From Agathobacter sp. (GTDB lineage Bacteria; Bacillota; Clostridia; Lachnospirales; Lachnospiraceae), in assembly GCA_017409825.1 (NCBI GenBank), contig JAFQRZ010000002.1, positions 1 through 64,000 of the forward strand: a stretch of 64,000 bases of DNA. Reading direction: 5' to 3'. This document shows positions 8,165 to 15,792 of the stretch, piece by piece; positions within the stretch are counted from its first letter, which is position 1, and every line of letters starts with the position of its first letter. The translations under genes and the position numbers were made by a program. Under the pieces are notes generated by a model. The model was not told the origin of the DNA and did no database searches. It was given only the letters and a program-made list of their open reading frames with translations.

Positions 8165-9708
8165 TTTATTTCCTCCATTTTTCGAATTTTTCTTTCTATC
8201 ATTTCATCTACACGTTCGAGATAATGTTTCACATCTTTTACGTTTTCCACACGTTCAATCCTCTGACTGCCATCTGGATTTGTCTCAGGTAACACAAACT
8301 TCGTCGTTGCACCTGCACCAAGTGCCATTATAGTCTGTTTTTCCTCCATAATCAAGATATTATATACGCCAGCCTTGCCTTTTTTTGCATACCCAACGTT
8401 TTCCATATTGCCAGCCATGCCTTTCTGACGATACAGGTAGTATGGCTCCAATCCCATCTCTTTACAGTAATCCGCACAAAGGTCCATGTGCTCCTGGGTA
8501 TTTACCATCTGCATATCCTTGTAATCGTCTTTGAACATATTTAATCTAGCCGCACGTTTGATTGCCAATGAGTGAATCGTGATATTATCTGGCTCCATTG
8601 CCTTCAACTCTTCCATCGTGTTTCGCACATCCTCGAAATCTTCCTCTGGAAGTCCCATGATAAGGTCCATATTGATATTATCAAATCCAACTTCTCTCGC
8701 CATTGCAAAGCTTTCTTTAATCTGTTCTACCGTATGATGTCTTCCGATTAAATCGAGCGTCGCCTGCTTCATGGTCTGTGGGTTAATCGAAATACGATCC
8801 ACGATTCCATGCTTTTTCAGCACCTCTAACTTGTCCTTCGTAATCGAATCCGGACGCCCCGCTTCTACTGTAAATTCGACACAGTGCTGTAAGTCAAAGC
8901 TACACTTGATTTTGCGGATAAGACGATCCAACTGCTGTGCATTTAAAGTAGTAGGTGTACCACCACCGATGTAAATCGAATTCAGTTTTTTATGCTGGAA
9001 TTTAACTGCCGTAAAATGAATTTCTTTTTCCAGTGCATCCAAATAATCATCTACTTTATTCTTCCACATACCCAAAGGATACGAGGTAAAGGAACAATAT
9101 AAACAAGTGCTTGGACAGAATGGAATGCCGATGTAAAGACTGTATCCATTTTCATAATCGATTTTTTCCAATAGCTTTCGTTCGCGTTTTGCAATATCGA
9201 TAGAAAGCTGAATTTTCTCGTCTGTTGCAAAATAGGTTTCTTTCATGTACTGGAAAATCTCATCATCCGACTTTCCTTCTTCCATAAGTTTCATCGGAAT
9301 CTTGGTTGGACGAATACCCGTCAAAGTCCCCCAAGGGAGCTCGCGACCTGTACCTTCTTTTAAAAGTGCATACAAATGCTGTTTGAGTGCATTCTTGGTT
9401 TCTTTTCTATCTGCAAAGTCCACTTCGAAATCGCGTGCAAAAAGCTTGTCGCCTCCAATAATCCACTTGATAGAGATTTTATTTTCCAAATAATCTACAT
9501 AGAAAACGTATTCGGCTTCTTCTAAGCGCTTTCTCGTTTCTTCGTCCTCGTTCGCAATCTCTCTATGTGTGCAAGCCACATTTTTGCCTTCTACCGCTTC
9601 TAACGGACAAGTGTAGTACATTTCTACGTCCTCTTTCGGCAAGTAGGCCTTTACCATAGAGTGCACATCATATTCAAATTCTGGTTTGTTAAAATTTATT
9701 ACTATCAT
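8155..9708 (-). CDS. hemZ: coproporphyrinogen dehydrogenase HemZ, radical SAM
   Basis: HemZ is an oxygen-independent coproporphyrinogen III oxidase-like radical SAM enzyme. The 517-residue protein has a clostridial-type N-terminal extension of about 160 residues, then the radical SAM cluster motif in GIPFCPSTCLYCSF (CxxxCxxC), the glycine motif IGGGTPTTL, and a HemN-like C-terminal part. The gene overlaps the MBL gene upstream by ATGA and hisS downstream by 10 bp, so expression is tightly coupled. Since no other heme genes are in the window, its actual substrate in this organism stays open. Confidence 0.92.
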   Translation of the reverse strand: MIVINFNKPEFEYDVHSMVKAYLPKEDVEMYYTCPLEAVEGKNVACTHREIANEDEETRKRLEEAEYVFYVDYLENKISIKWIIGGDKLFARDFEVDFADRKETKNALKQHLYALLKEGTGRELPWGTLTGIRPTKIPMKLMEEGKSDDEIFQYMKETYFATDEKIQLSIDIAKRERKLLEKIDYENGYSLYIGIPFCPSTCLYCSFTSYPLGMWKNKVDDYLDALEKEIHFTAVKFQHKKLNSIYIGGGTPTTLNAQQLDRLIRKIKCSFDLQHCVEFTVEAGRPDSITKDKLEVLKKHGIVDRISINPQTMKQATLDLIGRHHTVEQIKESFAMAREVGFDNINMDLIMGLPEEDFEDVRNTMEELKAMEPDNITIHSLAIKRAARLNMFKDDYKDMQMVNTQEHMDLCADYCKEMGLEPYYLYRQKGMAGNMENVGYAKKGKAGVYNILIMEEKQTIMALGAGATTKFVLPETNPDGSQRIERVENVKDVKHYLERVDEMIERKIRKMEEIKWH

Positions 9709-10352
9709 AGATAAGGGTTTTCCATCCTCTCTGTTTCAATCGTGGTTGGGTCATTGTGGCCTGGATAAACCATGATATCGGTTTCCAAATTTCCTGGCTC
9801 ATTTAATGTCATAAGCTTCTCCTGAATAGAACGCACAATCTGCGACATACTTCCACCAGGGAAATCCGTTCTACCTACGGACTGTGCAAATAAGGTATCA
9901 CCAGTAAAAACTACATTTTCTTCTGCCACATAGTAACAACATCCGCCCTCGGTATGCCCTGGCGTGTGAAGTACTTTGATTTCAAAGCCTGCTAATGAGA
10001 TGATTTCCTCATCTTTTAAAAACACATCTGCCTCATAGCTTTCCTTGCAATTTACCATCCAGCTTACATTTTTCTGAGGGTCGTGTAAAGTATCTGCCTC
10101 TGCTTCGTGTGCATAAACTTTAATGTCAAATTCCTTTGCCAAATCCTCTGCCGCAGCCACATGGTCAAAATGTCCATGGGTAAGAAGCACCGCTACTGGA
10201 ATTAAATTGTCTTGTTTTATTTTTTCTGCCAGCTGTTTTCCAGATGCACCTGGATCAATGATAAAACATTCTTTTGTAACGTCATTGATGACTATATAGC
10301 AGTTGGTCTGCACCATGCCTACCACATAGTGATTGATTTTCATTTTGCTCAT
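9705..10352 (-). CDS. MBL-fold metallo-hydrolase, glyoxalase II-like
   Basis: A 215-residue metallo-beta-lactamase fold hydrolase. It shows the zinc motif THGHFDH near residue 60, the later ligands in TPGHTEGG and VFTGDTLF, and the C-terminal YPGHNDPTT. This pattern is typical of small glyoxalase II-like hydrolases, but the substrate cannot be fixed. AGGAGAAAATT lies before the start; an internal ATG three codons later is also possible. It overlaps hemZ by 4 bp and follows the nucleotidyltransferase gene by 9 bp. The order MBL-hemZ-hisS-aspS is a conserved clostridial block. Confidence 0.93.
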   Translation of the reverse strand: MSKMKINHYVVGMVQTNCYIVINDVTKECFIIDPGASGKQLAEKIKQDNLIPVAVLLTHGHFDHVAAAEDLAKEFDIKVYAHEAEADTLHDPQKNVSWMVNCKESYEADVFLKDEEIISLAGFEIKVLHTPGHTEGGCCYYVAEENVVFTGDTLFAQSVGRTDFPGGSMSQIVRSIQEKLMTLNEPGNLETDIMVYPGHNDPTTIETERMENPYL

Positions 10353-10361
10353 AATTTTCTC

Positions 10362-10850
10362 CTAGAAATACTCGAATGTTTTTAAATGAGAAATCCAATT
10401 TTCTAAACTTTCCATACTAAAATCTTTCAGTGCTTTTTCATAGCAAACATACGAAGCTGGATAATTCTCTTTCATCCATTTTAGCGACTTTTTCGGGCCA
10501 AAATAAGGATGTCGTGTCATATCACAAAAGATTTCCAAACTATCTATCAACACCCAATGCCATCGAAACATTCCCTCCGCATCACATCTCTTTGCTCGCT
10601 CAAACATCTTCGTGCACCAATCAATGTTTGCTTGGATTTCTTCTTTCGATTTATATTGACGTTCTTCCAAATATGACAAAACTCGGTTTTGAAGTATTTT
10701 CCCTTTATCCTCATAGTCCGCAATGATTTTTCCATCAAAGATTTGTATAAAATCACTATTCAAATTATTTGTTCCATCCGCGTATGAGCCATATAAGATA
10801 ATAGAAAGCGGATGATATTGTTGTCTTATATATTCCATAATCTGTTCCAC
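10362..10850 (-). CDS. nucleotidyltransferase-domain protein, probably missing a catalytic segment
   Basis: The protein has the signature of DNA polymerase beta-like nucleotidyltransferases: YGSYADGTNNLNSDF. In active members SD is followed within two residues by another Asp (SDxD), and a third carboxylate comes about 30-40 residues later. Here the text runs from NSDF straight into IQIFDGKII, so the second Asp and the following strand are absent. The rest (EIQANIDWC, RWHWVLIDSLEIFCD) looks complete. I infer an internal in-frame loss, and enzymatic activity is doubtful. The start is taken as GTG at 10850 because GAGGTG lies 7 bp upstream; the frame could begin at TTG 10865. It belongs to the accessory run between rel and the MBL gene. 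Confidence 0.8.
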   Translation of the reverse strand: MEQIMEYIRQQYHPLSIILYGSYADGTNNLNSDFIQIFDGKIIADYEDKGKILQNRVLSYLEERQYKSKEEIQANIDWCTKMFERAKRCDAEGMFRWHWVLIDSLEIFCDMTRHPYFGPKKSLKWMKENYPASYVCYEKALKDFSMESLENWISHLKTFEYF

Positions 10851-10865
10851 AAAAATACACCTCAA

Positions 10866-11318
10866 TTACTTATGAATATACATTCTCGTCATATCTGGTT
10901 CGCCATCTCCCTGCACCATGCAAAGAAATTCCCAACCATATCTTTCGTAGAAACCAGTATGGTCTGTCACCAAATAAATTGGTGTAATGCCCTTGTCTTT
11001 CATGTCTTCTACCACCATATTTAACAGATTCCCAGCGATTCCTTGTCCTCGATATTCTTCTTCTGTGTACACGGCACATACATTTGGAAAAAGGTCTTTT
11101 CGGTCATGAAAATCATTTTCGATGACACCCATTCCCGCAACGATTTTGTCTCCATCAAGACACAAATACCAGCCGTACTCTGTCTCTTTATTTAAGTAAC
11201 TTTCCATACATTCAAGATATGCCTCTTCTGGCACACCCCATTTACTGTTAAACCAAGATGCTGCTACATCTTTTAACTCTGGATGTTCTCTTAATGTTAT
11301 ATATTTATATTCCTGCAT
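10866..11318 (-). CDS. GNAT-family N-acetyltransferase
   Basis: A 150-residue GNAT fold protein that should transfer an acyl group from acyl-CoA to an amine. The acetyl-CoA binding motif A reads EEEYRGQGIAGNLLN, matching the Q/RxxGxG/A pattern. A later FYERYGWEF stretch is the typical beta-bulge end of the fold. The substrate is unknown. It lies 26 bp after the alpha/beta hydrolase and 15 bp before the nucleotidyltransferase, all in one direction, so it probably shares a transcript with them. Confidence 0.87.
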   Translation of the reverse strand: MQEYKYITLREHPELKDVAASWFNSKWGVPEEAYLECMESYLNKETEYGWYLCLDGDKIVAGMGVIENDFHDRKDLFPNVCAVYTEEEYRGQGIAGNLLNMVVEDMKDKGITPIYLVTDHTGFYERYGWEFLCMVQGDGEPDMTRMYIHK

Positions 11319-11344
11319 TTTCTTAACTTTCTCCTCTTCTACAA

Positions 11345-12232
11345 TTATTTGATTGCTTTATGAAGGAAATCTTTTATCGCATTCTGGTACTGTTCCGTTT
11401 GCTTATACATACCATTTCCATGGTTGCAGCCTTCAAGGATAATAACATCCGTGCTACATGGATTGGTACCCTTTATTGTATCAAATAACTCTTCCATATT
11501 TTCCATACTTCCTGCCGATAATAGGATTGGATATTTGCTCTTTGATACGATATCCACACATTCAAAATCCTTGACATCTGCATTGAATTCTTTTTCGAAA
11601 CGTTCTATTGCACAAATTGCAACCTTTTCGTAACCTTTTTTGAACACATCTTTTGACACATTTTCAAAAAATTCTCGAATACTTACACTTGGTGCGTCTG
11701 CAATAATTCCCTTCACGTTTTTCATATCTTTATCAGCCAAATCCAAAGCAATTCCACCACCCATGCTTAATCCGTGGATGATGATAGCATCGTCTGGATT
11801 CATTTCGTTGATTTTGCTTACCCAATTCAACATATCTTTGTATTCCAATGCCCCGAAGGTAATGTATTTTCCTTCACTTAAGCCATGTGCTCTCTGATAT
11901 GGAATCAGCACACTATAGCCCTGAGACAAATAAAACAAACCTGGAAATGCCCACTCTCTTTCTGCATGACTTGTGTAGCCATGCACACAGATTACAGTAA
12001 CATTTTTGCTATTACTGTTTGGGTAATATACGCCTTTTAATTTCAGATTATCGTGACTGGTGATTTCCAGTAATTCATGAGGCTGTTCCTGAATCTCTTT
12101 CAGGGAATTATGTACTTTTGTTATGGTATCATACCATGCATCCGTTGGTGGCACCATTGCGTATGCTTTTTCGATATCTGGTCTTTTTAAAAGTTGTGTA
12201 AATAATATATCTGCTTTGAATTTATCAAACAT
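11345..12232 (-). CDS. alpha/beta hydrolase
   Basis: A 295-residue serine hydrolase of the alpha/beta fold. The strand and oxyanion region VICVHGYTSHAEREW and the nucleophile elbow HGLSMGGGIAL (GxSxG) are clear; a late CNHGNGMYK holds the likely catalytic His. It resembles BAAT/DLH-type esterases without a signal peptide, so it is probably cytoplasmic. The start at 12232 is chosen over the longer frame because GGAGAATAAAA lies directly before it and it then begins 2 bp after the NUDIX stop. Confidence 0.87.
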   Translation of the reverse strand: MFDKFKADILFTQLLKRPDIEKAYAMVPPTDAWYDTITKVHNSLKEIQEQPHELLEITSHDNLKLKGVYYPNSNSKNVTVICVHGYTSHAEREWAFPGLFYLSQGYSVLIPYQRAHGLSEGKYITFGALEYKDMLNWVSKINEMNPDDAIIIHGLSMGGGIALDLADKDMKNVKGIIADAPSVSIREFFENVSKDVFKKGYEKVAICAIERFEKEFNADVKDFECVDIVSKSKYPILLSAGSMENMEELFDTIKGTNPCSTDVIILEGCNHGNGMYKQTEQYQNAIKDFLHKAIK

Positions 12233-12234
12233 TT

Positions 12235-12756
12235 TTATTCTCCATCTAATATTTTTCTCGCCTGTCGTAGTATCGGTAACTCTCGATTTGCGACAAGTCT
12301 TCCTATTTTGGTACAAGCACATCTTTCGTACTCGTCAATTGCTTCCTCATATGCTAATTTTAAAGTCGACAAATGAAATTCTTCTATCTCATCCTGCATC
12401 AAGTTCTTTTCTCCAAAAGAAACTACTTTGCAAAGATAATAATTATTTATATTGTGTCTGTGAATCAAATTGTAGTAATCGTTTACCACACCGATTTTAC
12501 ACAAAACTTCAACACACACTCCCAGTTCTTCTTTCAATTCTCGCTTAATTGCTGTAAGCAAATCTTCTCCTTTTTCGACACCACCACCCGATGTCTCAAT
12601 CAAGGTAGCTTTTCCAAAATCATCATCTCGCTCTGCACGAACAAAGTAGAAAAATCCCTCATCATCGAAAACGATTGCTCGTACAATTTCTCTATCGTGG
12701 TCGGTATATGTGAATGTCCACTCTTCATCTTGAAGGCGAAGTGTTAACTCATTCAT
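12235..12756 (-). CDS. NUDIX hydrolase
   Basis: A 173-residue NUDIX hydrolase, a family that cleaves nucleoside diphosphates linked to another group. The full NUDIX box is present, beginning GGGVEKGEDL and ending RELKEELGV (Gx5Ex7REUxEExGU), near residues 65-88. GGAGAACGAAA lies before the start. The N-terminus is a short strand-rich region; no second domain is visible. It lies 15 bp behind the P-loop kinase and 2 bp ahead of the alpha/beta hydrolase. It is distinct from the NUDIX gene at 14941-15405. Confidence 0.9.
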   Translation of the reverse strand: MNELTLRLQDEEWTFTYTDHDREIVRAIVFDDEGFFYFVRAERDDDFGKATLIETSGGGVEKGEDLLTAIKRELKEELGVCVEVLCKIGVVNDYYNLIHRHNINNYYLCKVVSFGEKNLMQDEIEEFHLSTLKLAYEEAIDEYERCACTKIGRLVANRELPILRQARKILDGE

Positions 12757-12771
12757 TTTCGTTCTCCATCT

Positions 12772-13278
12772 CTATAAAATAATCTCATACTTATCATCAA
12801 TAAGTATATAGTCCACATCATGCTTTTTCGCCAGCTCTAACACCTGCGTATTATCCTTAATCAAGCCTTCTAAGGTACAATCATCTTCCAAGCGATTTTC
12901 AACTACATTCGCATACTTCTTAATATCCTCAAAATGAGTTCGTATGTAATCTTCACTCATCACCAGGCAGTAATAGCGGATGTGTTCCAAATAATCCTCA
13001 TCAAAATCCTTCTTCCAATCAAACGGAATATAGCACCCCTCTACGATCAAATTCTGGTCATTCTCTATCGCTGTCTTAATCATCTCACGCACGATAGGCC
13101 ACAAATAATTGGTAAGCTCTTTTGTGTCGCTCATCGGAGTGAGCTCTGTATTTCCACTTCGAATCAATCCCATTTTTAGATGGTCGATAGAAAGATAAGG
13201 ATAGTTGTATTTTTCGAGCAGTCTTTGCGCTAACGCGGTCTTGCCAGTGTGAGATGTACCAGTAATTATAATAATCAT
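12772..13278 (-). CDS. P-loop kinase-like AAA protein
   Basis: A 168-residue P-loop protein. Walker A is ITGTSHTGKTALA near residues 5-17, followed by YPYLSIDHLKMG, which places an Asp where small-molecule kinases bind their substrate. Length and layout fit the shikimate/gluconate-kinase-like or 2-phosphoglycerate-kinase-like group, but the substrate cannot be named. The end of the small upstream frame (stop 13283) is 4 bp before its start and carries the candidate Shine-Dalgarno GAAAGG. Confidence 0.8.
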   Translation of the reverse strand: MIIIITGTSHTGKTALAQRLLEKYNYPYLSIDHLKMGLIRSGNTELTPMSDTKELTNYLWPIVREMIKTAIENDQNLIVEGCYIPFDWKKDFDEDYLEHIRYYCLVMSEDYIRTHFEDIKKYANVVENRLEDDCTLEGLIKDNTQVLELAKKHDVDYILIDDKYEIIL

Positions 13279-13282
13279 TATT

Positions 13283-13441
13283 TTACCTTTCTAATTCATT
13301 TAATAACTTCGCTTTCATTTCTTCAGGCTCTGCATCTGTAGATCTATTATCGTCACTATACATTTTTTCCATAGGATACCACCAAACAGGTACCTTACCG
13401 TTGTTTCCATGATTTTCAATATCACCACTTATATCAAACAC
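13283..13441 (-). CDS. small 52-residue protein, GTG start, function unknown
   Basis: An open frame begins at GTG 13441, ten bases after AAGGAG, and ends at TAA 13283. It encodes 52 residues rich in charged and Trp/Tyr positions (VPVWWYPMEKMY, then EPEEMKAKLLNELER). It overlaps the last codons of the 350-residue gene in another frame and ends 4 bp before the P-loop gene. It fills what would otherwise be a 155-bp gap in a tightly packed operon. It could be a real small gene or a remnant of a longer protein. Confidence 0.5.
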   Translation of the reverse strand: MFDISGDIENHGNNGKVPVWWYPMEKMYSDDNRSTDAEPEEMKAKLLNELER

Positions 13442-14486
13442 ATATTTTGAGCTCCTTACAGTTTTTCAAAATAAGTAATGTTCTAAAAGTTCCCTCTACT
13501 ACCATTGCCTGTTTTTTTCTGCGATTTTCACCTAAACCCATATGATTGCCTAAAATCCAACAAGCATTTTTTTCTGTAAGATAGTTTTTCGGATAATGAT
13601 AAATCCCATCTACATCTATAAACTGCTTCATTACATTTAACGCTTGTGTAAACCATTTGGATTTTTGGACTATTGAGAAGTTACTCATCAACTCCATTTT
13701 CAGTAATAACGAAGTATCATAATACTCTTTCGCCACATTTGTTGGTTTTGGATCCCAACCCATCGCCCAATAATTTCGTTTATCCGAAAGCACACCATAG
13801 CCATCTTTGATTAACTGAAATCTTTCGTCTAAAATGTATGTAATGATTTCATTTATCTTATTTTGATAATCTTGTTCCAACTCAAATTGTATGCTTGCAA
13901 AAGCATATAAATCATATATCAACGGCAATCTTATTCTTCCTTTTTCATATAAACACGGACGAATAATTGGTCGATTTTGATAATTTTTAGGTATTCCTTT
14001 ATATTCTGTTATATCATCATAAATATCATATTCCTTATATTGTACAAAATCATATATGTCGTTAATTCTATTTTTTGCAAATTCAATCAACCACTCTTCT
14101 CGCACCCCAGCTCTCAGTAACGCTGAAACAACTACAATATGTGATAAATATCCTAGCACATGATTTTCATTGATACTTCTATTTTTAGCTTCTTCTTCAA
14201 TTGTTTTTACAATATCATCGAATTCAGAAAATCCTCGCCTATACTGAAGTCCCCTATCAACAAGCATATTAAGGGAATTTTCCACAGCATAAAGTGTTGC
14301 TCCATGATACTCTTTATGATTCTTCAAACACTCCAATAAATGAATTACTTTCTTTGACTGTGCTAATTCATTTTGTAATTTACTCAACTTCTTTGCATCT
14401 GTATGCTCGCACAAATCTCTTTTTATACGATATTGTATTGCTATATCTGATTTATCTAAAAGAAAATTGATTACTGTTTCATTCAT
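13434..14486 (-). CDS. protein of unknown function, helical-repeat type
   Basis: A 350-residue protein I cannot name with confidence. It begins MNETVINFLLDKSDIAIQYR and has repeated helical segments with Trp, Tyr and His motifs (NYWAMGWDPKP, HYPKNYLTEKNACWILGNH, GENRRKKQAMVVEGTF). The pattern suggests an all-helical, possibly alpha/alpha-toroid protein. Similar proteins are sometimes labelled NifH by automatic pipelines, but no P-loop or Fe-protein feature is present here. AAAAGGAAGAG precedes the start. It is AT-richer than the neighbouring housekeeping genes. It lies 29 bp after the VOC gene. Confidence 0.75.
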   Translation of the reverse strand: MNETVINFLLDKSDIAIQYRIKRDLCEHTDAKKLSKLQNELAQSKKVIHLLECLKNHKEYHGATLYAVENSLNMLVDRGLQYRRGFSEFDDIVKTIEEEAKNRSINENHVLGYLSHIVVVSALLRAGVREEWLIEFAKNRINDIYDFVQYKEYDIYDDITEYKGIPKNYQNRPIIRPCLYEKGRIRLPLIYDLYAFASIQFELEQDYQNKINEIITYILDERFQLIKDGYGVLSDKRNYWAMGWDPKPTNVAKEYYDTSLLLKMELMSNFSIVQKSKWFTQALNVMKQFIDVDGIYHYPKNYLTEKNACWILGNHMGLGENRRKKQAMVVEGTFRTLLILKNCKELKICV

Positions 14487-14515
14487 CTTTCTCTTCCTTT
14501 TGGGCTAAAGTCATA

Positions 14516-14920
14516 TTACTCAAATATATTGATAATATATCCGTCAATCGTTGTTAAACTACAAGTTTTACCACCCCAAGGCTGTGTCACAACCTCGGTG
14601 ATTTTATCCCATCCATTAGAAGTAATATATGCATGCAATTTTTCAATTCCTTTTACCTGCATAAATGAAATTACATGTGAATCTGGTGTTCCAGAAAACA
14701 TTTGAAATCCAGTAAATGGTGCTAATTGTGCAAGCTCGACTTCTGGTAACATATCAAACACCACACCATAACAACCATTTCCATTTTCATCTCTTTCTAC
14801 AATATTGCTATACCAACCTAATACCTCTTCAAACCATTTTGCAGTCGCATCCATATTATTGGTTATATATATAGGTGCATTTTCTTTTACAAAATATCCT
14901 TTTTCGCTAAATTTGCTCAT
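14516..14920 (-). CDS. VOC-family (glyoxalase-like) protein
   Basis: A 134-residue vicinal-oxygen-chelate fold protein. It has the paired beta-alpha-beta-beta-beta layout and pieces such as NMDATAKWFEEVLGW near the N-terminus and the end TIDGYIINIFE, where a metal-binding Glu is usual. Members include glyoxalases, bleomycin-binding proteins and many uncharacterised ones. The ATG at 14920 is preferred because GGAGG lies 8 bp before it; the longer frame starts inside that site. It lies 20 bp after a NUDIX gene in the accessory run. Confidence 0.82.
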   Translation of the reverse strand: MSKFSEKGYFVKENAPIYITNNMDATAKWFEEVLGWYSNIVERDENGNGCYGVVFDMLPEVELAQLAPFTGFQMFSGTPDSHVISFMQVKGIEKLHAYITSNGWDKITEVVTQPWGGKTCSLTTIDGYIINIFE

Positions 14921-14940
14921 AACAAGCACCTCCTCAATTT

Positions 14941-15405
14941 CTAATCTATCACCTCTGCATCCCCAATTTCCTCATTCCCCAAATAAACACGATGCTCTTT
15001 TCCTTCGTGTAAATTCATAATCTGCCGACGAAGCTTAGAAGGATAGAGCGGAGTCGTATTCAACGTCTTTATATCCAGCCAATCATATCCGACTTGATTG
15101 GTATCGCTCTGCAAAATTGCATTTTCGATTGTACCTTTATACTCACACAAAAACACGAGGTCTACACGATGAAAATTTTCTCCATGAACGCCTTCGATCA
15201 CAAATGCCAAATCTTTTACTTCTACTTTAAGACCTAATTCCTCTGCCACTTCTCTACATGCCGCCTCTGGAAGAAGTTCTTCTACCTCTTGTCCGCCGCC
15301 TGGCATAATGTACCATTCTTCTTTTCCATCATTGATTTTAATCGCCAGCATTTTGTCATCTTTTATAATTAATGCTTTCGCAGCATTTCTTATCGTTCGA
15401 TTCAT
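14941..15405 (-). CDS. NUDIX hydrolase
   Basis: A 154-residue NUDIX hydrolase with a complete box that starts GGGQEVEELLPEAA and ends CREVAEELGL. The start MNRTIRNAAKAL at 15405 has AAAGGG seven bases upstream; the alternative upstream ATG at 15447 would place the N-terminus inside the 15436-15773 foldback element and is less likely. It is the first gene of the accessory run that follows rel. The substrate is unknown. Confidence 0.88.
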   Translation of the reverse strand: MNRTIRNAAKALIIKDDKMLAIKINDGKEEWYIMPGGGQEVEELLPEAACREVAEELGLKVEVKDLAFVIEGVHGENFHRVDLVFLCEYKGTIENAILQSDTNQVGYDWLDIKTLNTTPLYPSKLRRQIMNLHEGKEHRVYLGNEEIGDAEVID

Positions 15406-15435
15406 GGCATTCCCTTTCTTTATATACCTACGGCT

Positions 15436-15773
15436 TTCTTGTTTCATATAGATTCTGTTTGATAAATTGCCTCTTAACTTATATTAATAAATTCTTTCTG
15501 CAAAATATACTTCCAGACGATTTATGCAGAACATACAGTTTTTCTTAGTGCTTTGTGGATGCACAGTAACTCGCTGACACGATGTCAGCGAGAGGATTCA
15601 CTGAGCCATGGAAGGCGAATTGAATCCGGTTACGTCACTTTGATAATATCTTGATTCAAAGCACTTAGAAAATCTTATGTTCAAATACTAGTCTGGAAGT
15701 ATATTTTGCAGAGAGAATTTGTTTAAGAAAACTAAATGCAATTTATCAAACAGCACCCAATTTGAAACAAGAA
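15436..15773. repeat. 338-bp foldback element with a branched centre
   Basis: Matching arms, outside to inside: 15436-15446 with 15763-15773 (11/11), 15455-15470 with 15738-15753 (16/16), 15489-15518 with 15691-15720 (29/30), and 15544-15555 with 15657-15668 (11/12). The centre forms a three-way junction: stem 15566-15570/15629-15633, hairpin 15570-15592 (10-bp stem, 3-nt loop) and hairpin 15594-15627 (GGATTCA/TGAATCC with an inner GCC/GGC pair). No open frame is inside. It fills almost the whole gap between rel and the first accessory gene. It could be a MITE-like element or a structured RNA; I do not recognise the family. Confidence 0.85.
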
Positions 15774-15792
15774 CCACCTAGCCGGTGGTTCT
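15770..15792 (-). terminator. terminator-like hairpin at the rel stop
   Basis: On the minus strand the stem AGAACCACC / GGTGGTTCT encloses the loop GGCTA and includes the last codons and the stop of rel. It is followed by TTGTTTC, a weak U-tract. It may act as an inefficient terminator, allowing readthrough into the downstream genes, or as an RNA-stabilising hairpin. Confidence 0.4.

Follow-up and report, generated by a model that had tools for sequence, protein, structure and literature searches.

A TwoAYGGAY RNA motif beside rel in Agathobacter sp. as the core of a probable palindromic mobile element

The fold-back sequence beside rel is one copy of a known RNA family, TwoAYGGAY (RF01731). 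It lies in the rel–NUDIX gap of the window, the whole stretch of 64,000 nucleotides from Agathobacter sp. (contig JAFQRZ010000002.1) analysed here. The Rfam covariance model matches positions 15522–15689 of the plus strand with 116.8 bits against a cut-off of 43 (E 1.3e-21), and the match spans the full model, positions 1–168. An earlier note on this DNA had not recognised the feature as a known family, a point that the match supersedes. We consider it likely, with a probability of about 0.75, that we are dealing with a non-autonomous palindromic MITE centred on TwoAYGGAY, here in a diverged copy. Its parts are as follows, in window positions:

15436..15450, plus strand: imperfect mirror of the rel-side flank, outside the element (mirror score 10.0)
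15436–15449 / 15760–15773: outermost arm pair (14 nt, 93%)
15451..15758, plus strand: probable mobile element of about 308 bp, its ends placed by the GATTC on the left and the mirrored end on the right
15455..15470 / 15738..15753, plus strand: outer arm pair, terminal inverted repeat region (16 nt, 100%)
15486..15518 / 15691..15723, plus strand: long arm pair (33 nt, 94% complementary-arm match)
15522..15689, plus strand: TwoAYGGAY core, a three-way junction (RF01731, 116.8 bits)
15537–15555 / 15657–15675: inner arm pair (19 nt, 89%)
15570..15592, plus strand: core hairpin 1, loop ACGAT, without GGA in the window copy
15594..15627, plus strand: core hairpin 2, loop ATGGAA at 15608–15613, GGA retained
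15759..15773, minus strand: rel-proximal flank, TTCTTGTTTCAAATT on the minus strand, element-free in the relative G007
15772..15790, minus strand: terminator-like inverted repeat AACCACC...GGTGGTT (AACCACCGGCTAGGTGGTT), overlapping the rel stop codon, found by eye

Four nested arm pairs had been described as folding the whole rel–NUDIX gap around two central hairpins. All four pairs are present, as are the hairpins at 15570–15592 and 15594–15627. The outermost pair is not confined to the gap, because the NUDIX open reading frame (ORF), as given in a program-made ORF list, starts at 15447 on the minus strand, which puts 12 of its bases inside the outermost arm. To judge from the sequence, the true NUDIX start may be the ATG at 15405. 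Both strands of 15416–15790 are predicted to fold stably, with −152.5 kcal/mol (z −14.1) for the plus strand and −148.9 kcal/mol (z −12.6) for the minus strand, and in neither case was any of 100 shuffles as good. Set against an AYGGAY-type expectation, the loops of the window copy read ATGGAA in hairpin 2 and ACGAT in hairpin 1. The inverted repeat AACCACCGGCTAGGTGGTT at the rel stop resembles an intrinsic terminator, and similar ones occur around the stop in some relatives; the terminator scan has no entry for the inverted repeat at 15772–15790.

A search of the host genome and its relatives, which the earlier note had recommended, revealed further copies. By plain DNA similarity, the assembly contains the window copy and its own reverse, with no second copy. 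The covariance model located a second RF01731 copy at G000:C2:10793-10958 (101.9 bits), adjoining the end of what we take to be an ffh–rpsP–KH-protein cluster. This copy (L017) and one in G007 (L033) appear co-sited, and their arms continue through a mirrored terminator of the neighbouring cluster. RF01731 occurs in 25 of the 62 genomes of the genus, one of them with at least 37 copies; the copy numbers are lower bounds, with up to 37 candidates per genome scored under stricter filters. An order-wide sample yielded RF01731 in 34 of 392 genomes and 19 of 173 genera, above the curated cut-off in 32 of the 34 genomes; here copy numbers are lower bounds from up to seven candidates per genome under stricter filters. 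Copies are also found on a plasmid of Roseburia sp. 831b. The copies examined comprise 24 of at least 37 in G016, 23 of at least 33 in G014, 21 of at least 24 in G052, 15 of at least 22 in G054 and 9 of at least 15 in G050, plus both in the window's assembly. Some form divergent pairs (minus, then plus) a few hundred bases apart. Four such pairs in G052 (L222, L223, L226, L227) have similar outer ends and resemble one composite unit with no obvious gene. A G052 core (L327) has a TPP riboswitch as its same-strand neighbour, about 150 bases away.

The nearest named rel genes are those of Agathobacter sp. RGIG2208 (91%) and Roseburia faecis (79%). A scan of 17 rel loci in relatives, drawn from about 12 genomes, found RF01731 in none of them. 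G007, the closest relative by rel (96%), keeps the flank sequence after rel and lacks the element there. In several relatives rel is directly followed by the equivalent of the gene at 9705–10352, read as an MBL-fold hydrolase. In the window about 5.4 kb of extra genes (10353–15773) separate rel from that gene, and G007 has other genes at the junction. The position behind rel is perhaps an insertion hot spot.

Roseburia-type genomes (G052, G054 and G050) hold many palindromes bounded by GATTCGGGTGTCAAAAGG-like terminal inverted repeats (TIRs). Both ends, each scoring at least 12 of 18 at the expected position, were seen in 19 of 45 copies and were not both seen in the other 26; the two-ended elements are non-coding and mostly 311–315 bp long. 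The direct match between their 7-bp flanks is 49.6%, compared with 31.3 ± 3.8% when flanks of different copies were paired (0 of 1000 permutations as high). Three of the 19 copies match perfectly at 7 bp, and matches at 5, 6, 8 and 9 bp are close to background. The mirror-image match of the 7-bp flanks is raised in the same 19 copies (45.1% versus 31.3 ± 3.9%; 0 of 1000 as high), so that the flank signal is partly something other than a plain direct duplication. Searching with the TIR pattern, allowing up to three mismatches, gave 24 hits in G052, 48 in G054 and one in G016, and the reversed pattern gave none in these genomes. Thirteen further TIR-bounded elements (four in G052, nine in G054) were collected; seven have perfect 7-bp duplications, and three are full-length at 315 bp while ten are shorter, at 45 to 239 bp.

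The ends in G016 and G014 belong to another subfamily, and the 7-bp duplication is established for the G052/G054/G050 type. Terminal repeats vary among subfamilies while the core is conserved, which is unusual for a MITE. Of five G016/G014 sites without a full element, four are deletion footprints that keep end pieces and one is ambiguous. Clean insertion was therefore rejected as an explanation of these sites, and no clean gain was seen there. A non-exhaustive inspection of TIR-bearing loci, without a protein-family search, found no transposase partner beside them, and phage records contained no match to a G052-type element used as query.

By position, the ends of the window copy fall near 15451 and 15758, with weak resemblance to the Roseburia ends. 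A target-site duplication was sought here, as the earlier note had advised. The left flank TCATATA and the right flank, CAATTTG or AATTTGA, form no direct repeat; there is an imperfect mirror instead. The note's MITE-like foldback element accordingly fares differently at the two levels. For the family, dispersed copies, TIRs, near-fixed length, 7-bp target duplications and deletion derivatives are strong evidence for a mobile MITE. For the window copy, whose ends have diverged and show no target duplication, homology and architecture point to the same assignment.

In the copies examined, the core caps a longer stem whose arms are specific to the locus. Own-arm pairing outside the Rfam model scored 25–62 in the first 49 copies (from G016, G014 and the window's assembly, some of them mutual orthologues). 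In the same test 100 cross-pairs averaged 17.2, with ten above 22 and a maximum of 40 that tops many of the own-arm scores. Among 103 non-redundant copies the own-arm median was 39, against 8.0 for cross-pairs; 96 of them beat every cross-genome pair (maximum 21.5) and seven do not. The arms vary from locus to locus except in groups of close copies, for example three in G052 with near-identical arms and different flanks. We also considered that the arms might be inverted host sequence made at each insertion. This was ruled out by the conserved terminal repeats in G052, G054 and G050, which imply that most of the arm belongs to the element. Only five of 72 copies, from four sites, have mirrored flank outside the element above the control level; the window copy and the second copy of its assembly are among them. 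The 15 mirrored bases in the window, with their score of 10.0, are a modest case: 99% of cross-pairs score below 8.5 and the maximum is 12.0.

Orthologous loci allow the history of single insertions to be followed. At 19 locus pairs shared by G016 and G014, two of which are neighbours, the core has the same orientation in 14 and is inverted in five, the inverted cores being 97–99% identical; one of the 14 is really not callable, as the whole element differs inside identical flanks. L200 and L073 (G014:16:94699), two quite different versions of the element, each largely self-complementary, stand between near-identical flanks at one orthologous site, which reads as a replacement or an independent insertion. 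Comparison of the stems in 14 orthologous pairs shows one-sided changes at 126 base pairs, of which 43 were kept as G-U and 83 were broken. Both sides changed at a further 24, with 19 remaining paired and five not; the one non-callable locus contributes 11 of the 19.

The covariance check on homologues that had been proposed earlier found strong covariation in the hairpins, built up over long times. Across 34 sequences 89.3% of cells pair, and the covariation is 0.793 compared with 0.160 after shuffling (0 of 500 as high). Changes affect both sides in 168 cells and one side in three, and are almost only Watson–Crick. Two other hairpin measures do not rise above the shuffles (double-change pairs, 12 versus 10.9; further pair types, 39 versus 36.8).

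Such stems could be kept by selection on pairing, in RNA or in single-stranded DNA, and not by template switching, an explanation that we regard as somewhat doubtful. Between orthologues the core diverges more slowly (3.5–3.9%) than the arms (6.1–6.5%), in keeping with such selection; the flanks, however, vary from 3.6% on the downstream side to 7.5% on the upstream side, so that some of the surrounding sequence diverges as slowly as the core. The 83 broken pairs among 126 indicate that one-sided change is not strongly selected against. G-U pairs exceed A-C mismatches slightly in the core hairpins (17 to 6, p 0.035). The inner stem has no such excess (36 to 30), and the arms have an excess of A-C (216 to 266, p 0.026). 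This test is weak, since the contrast in a terminator control is itself small (44 to 34). A TPP riboswitch control worked, on its 15 consensus pairs. The G-U excess is weakly consistent with an RNA role, and in the core alone. Selection on pairing also leaves the inversion of the core unexplained.

Template switching between inverted repeats has been described in yeast as homogenising the arms and inverting the spacer (PMC8604942), and template switching is also described as a source of multi-base compensatory changes in RNA stems (PMC8794818). Taken together, the arms, the inversions and the mirrored flanks are in fair agreement with template switching during replication, which the almost wholly double changes in the hairpins also fit; the core could also invert by recombination between the arms. 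In the mechanism that we propose, a transposase acting in trans would move the element as DNA. Once inserted, the quasi-palindrome would be reworked by replication template switching, with one arm copied onto the other, so that the arms would stay complementary while diverging. Copying would sometimes overrun into the flank and leave mirrored host sequence. Template switching would also flip the core, and interior parts would be lost by deletion, the conserved part being the core with its two GGA hairpin loops.

Why the core is conserved is a separate matter, and CsrA offers a candidate answer. A link between TwoAYGGAY and CsrA was proposed in 2014 from motif matches (PMC4333381). The two hairpins were picked in all 132 copies, with GGA in loop 1 of 120 and in loop 2 of 112, by a picking rule that itself requires GA in the loop. 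CsrA (PF02599) is encoded in 225 of the 392 genomes of the order sample. It is present in 34 of 34 TwoAYGGAY genomes and in 191 of 358 others (Fisher p 3e-9, ignoring phylogeny; the two genome lists were matched by eye). The difference persists when the sample is limited to genomes of 90% completeness or more (34 of 34 carriers versus 149 of 265, again ignoring phylogeny) and by genus (19 of 19 carriers, 109 of 173 overall; p 8e-5, with the same disregard of phylogeny). We take this co-occurrence, a new claim for TwoAYGGAY, as suggestive. CsrA could instead be a lineage marker, for example of motile lineages. As a discriminator within the genus of the window it was ruled out: 58 of 62 genomes have CsrA, including 24 of 25 carriers, and the sole carrier without it, G022, is 68% complete. 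Promoter-like hits are near chance (4 versus 2.2 ± 1.6).

Binding of CsrA by the plus-strand RNA would be the most likely reason for conservation of the core, though we hold this tentatively and at somewhat less than even odds. More speculative, and rather unlikely as a whole, is a CsrA-dependent selfish element, in which a self-repairing, flipping palindrome would place paired predicted CsrA sites in transcripts. If it were true, dozens of insertions would act as CsrA decoys, by which the CsrA regulon of gut Lachnospiraceae (motility, flagellin) would be set or rewired, and inversion of the core would turn single decoys on or off with respect to the transcription around them.

The GGA loops, the published motif-based prediction and the presence of CsrA in every carrier of the order sample would equally suit a family of CsrA-sequestering sRNA genes (CsrB/RsmZ-like) that spread by ordinary duplication, the palindromic context being secondary. 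We find this unlikely. Terminal repeats with 7-bp duplications, together with deletion derivatives, are the hallmark of a transposable element; 5 of 19 orthologous loci have an inverted core, and there are many diverged copies. G-U pairs are, in addition, rare, at 74 of 3666 cells in 103 cores compared with 76 of 443 in 30 TPP riboswitches of the genus, a control that covers 15 consensus pairs and was made with RNAalifold, which favours G-U.

The Rfam type of the family, "Cis-reg", and the position in the rel–NUDIX gap would fit an RNA that regulates its neighbouring genes in cis, or a processing site within the rel operon, and the earlier note had suggested a structured RNA made by readthrough from rel. 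Strand and orientation make this very unlikely. The RF01731 core is on the plus strand and both rel and NUDIX are on the minus strand, so readthrough from rel would yield the strand opposite to the conserved one. A first count of neighbouring genes in 49 copies, which took in G014 and used a looser ORF rule, had the divergent arrangement rarest (++ 19, +- 13, -- 12, -+ 5). Over 69 copies, however, orientation is unbiased (++ 23, -- 23, -+ 12, +- 11), and the downstream gene is co-directional in 35 of the 69. The inverted orthologous cores and the 17 relative rel loci without RF01731 also speak against such a role, and Weinberg 2010 rates TwoAYGGAY as probably an RNA and probably not cis-regulatory (PMC2864571).

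A functionless inverted duplication, arisen locally or by chance, which the single copy found by plain DNA similarity and the outermost arm mirroring the rel-side flank might suggest, and which the earlier note had tied to a single copy without covariation, can practically be dismissed: there are two copies in this assembly and homologues in many genomes, with covarying hairpins and a repeated architecture.

With the mobile palindrome as the preferred reading, an Rfam family without an explained function and filed as cis-regulatory would turn out to be the centre of a mobile element, and its patchy occurrence in many copies would be accounted for. The stems of the family would offer a natural test of how much "covariation" stems from template switching in DNA and how much from selection on RNA; they are apt for this because changes are nearly all double and Watson–Crick and because the core inverts. 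The CsrA co-occurrence lends genome-scale support to the CsrA-binding proposal of 2014.

The feature is a known motif in a new setting, probably a MITE with a conserved, possibly CsrA-related core. It shares with the published TwoAYGGAY RNA (RF01731, PMC2864571) the motif itself, at full model length and 116.8 bits. Rfam describes TwoAYGGAY as a 168-nt Cis-reg RNA, whereas here it forms the tip of a longer palindrome without gene-orientation bias, to which relatives of the window copy add terminal repeats and target duplications. Rfam 15 reports an improved structure for the family (PMC11701678), and the unequal stability of its two hairpins has been pointed out (PMC11661157). The titles and abstract openings covered, in which subscription journals are thinly represented, contain no claim of a MITE or of CsrA co-occurrence for TwoAYGGAY. 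The Correia or NEMIS elements (CREE) of Neisseria are likewise dispersed MITEs with inverted repeats, a conserved core and long-stem transcripts (PMC2649163; PMC2229807). By description they are set apart by their host and by the length of about 313 bp, the 7-bp duplication and the three-way junction core with GGA hairpins found here. The sponge RNAs CsrB, CsrC and RsmX/Y/Z also present GGA in hairpin loops, the likeness behind the CsrA link proposed in PMC4333381, but TwoAYGGAY has two candidate sites per unit, many genomic copies and mobility. YPAL/RU-2 and the Rickettsia palindromic elements, likened here by description, are also small palindromic mobile repeats; YPAL targets span or adjoin a dyad symmetry, and its duplications measure 3–26 bp (PMC2229807), compared with 7 bp in the family described here.
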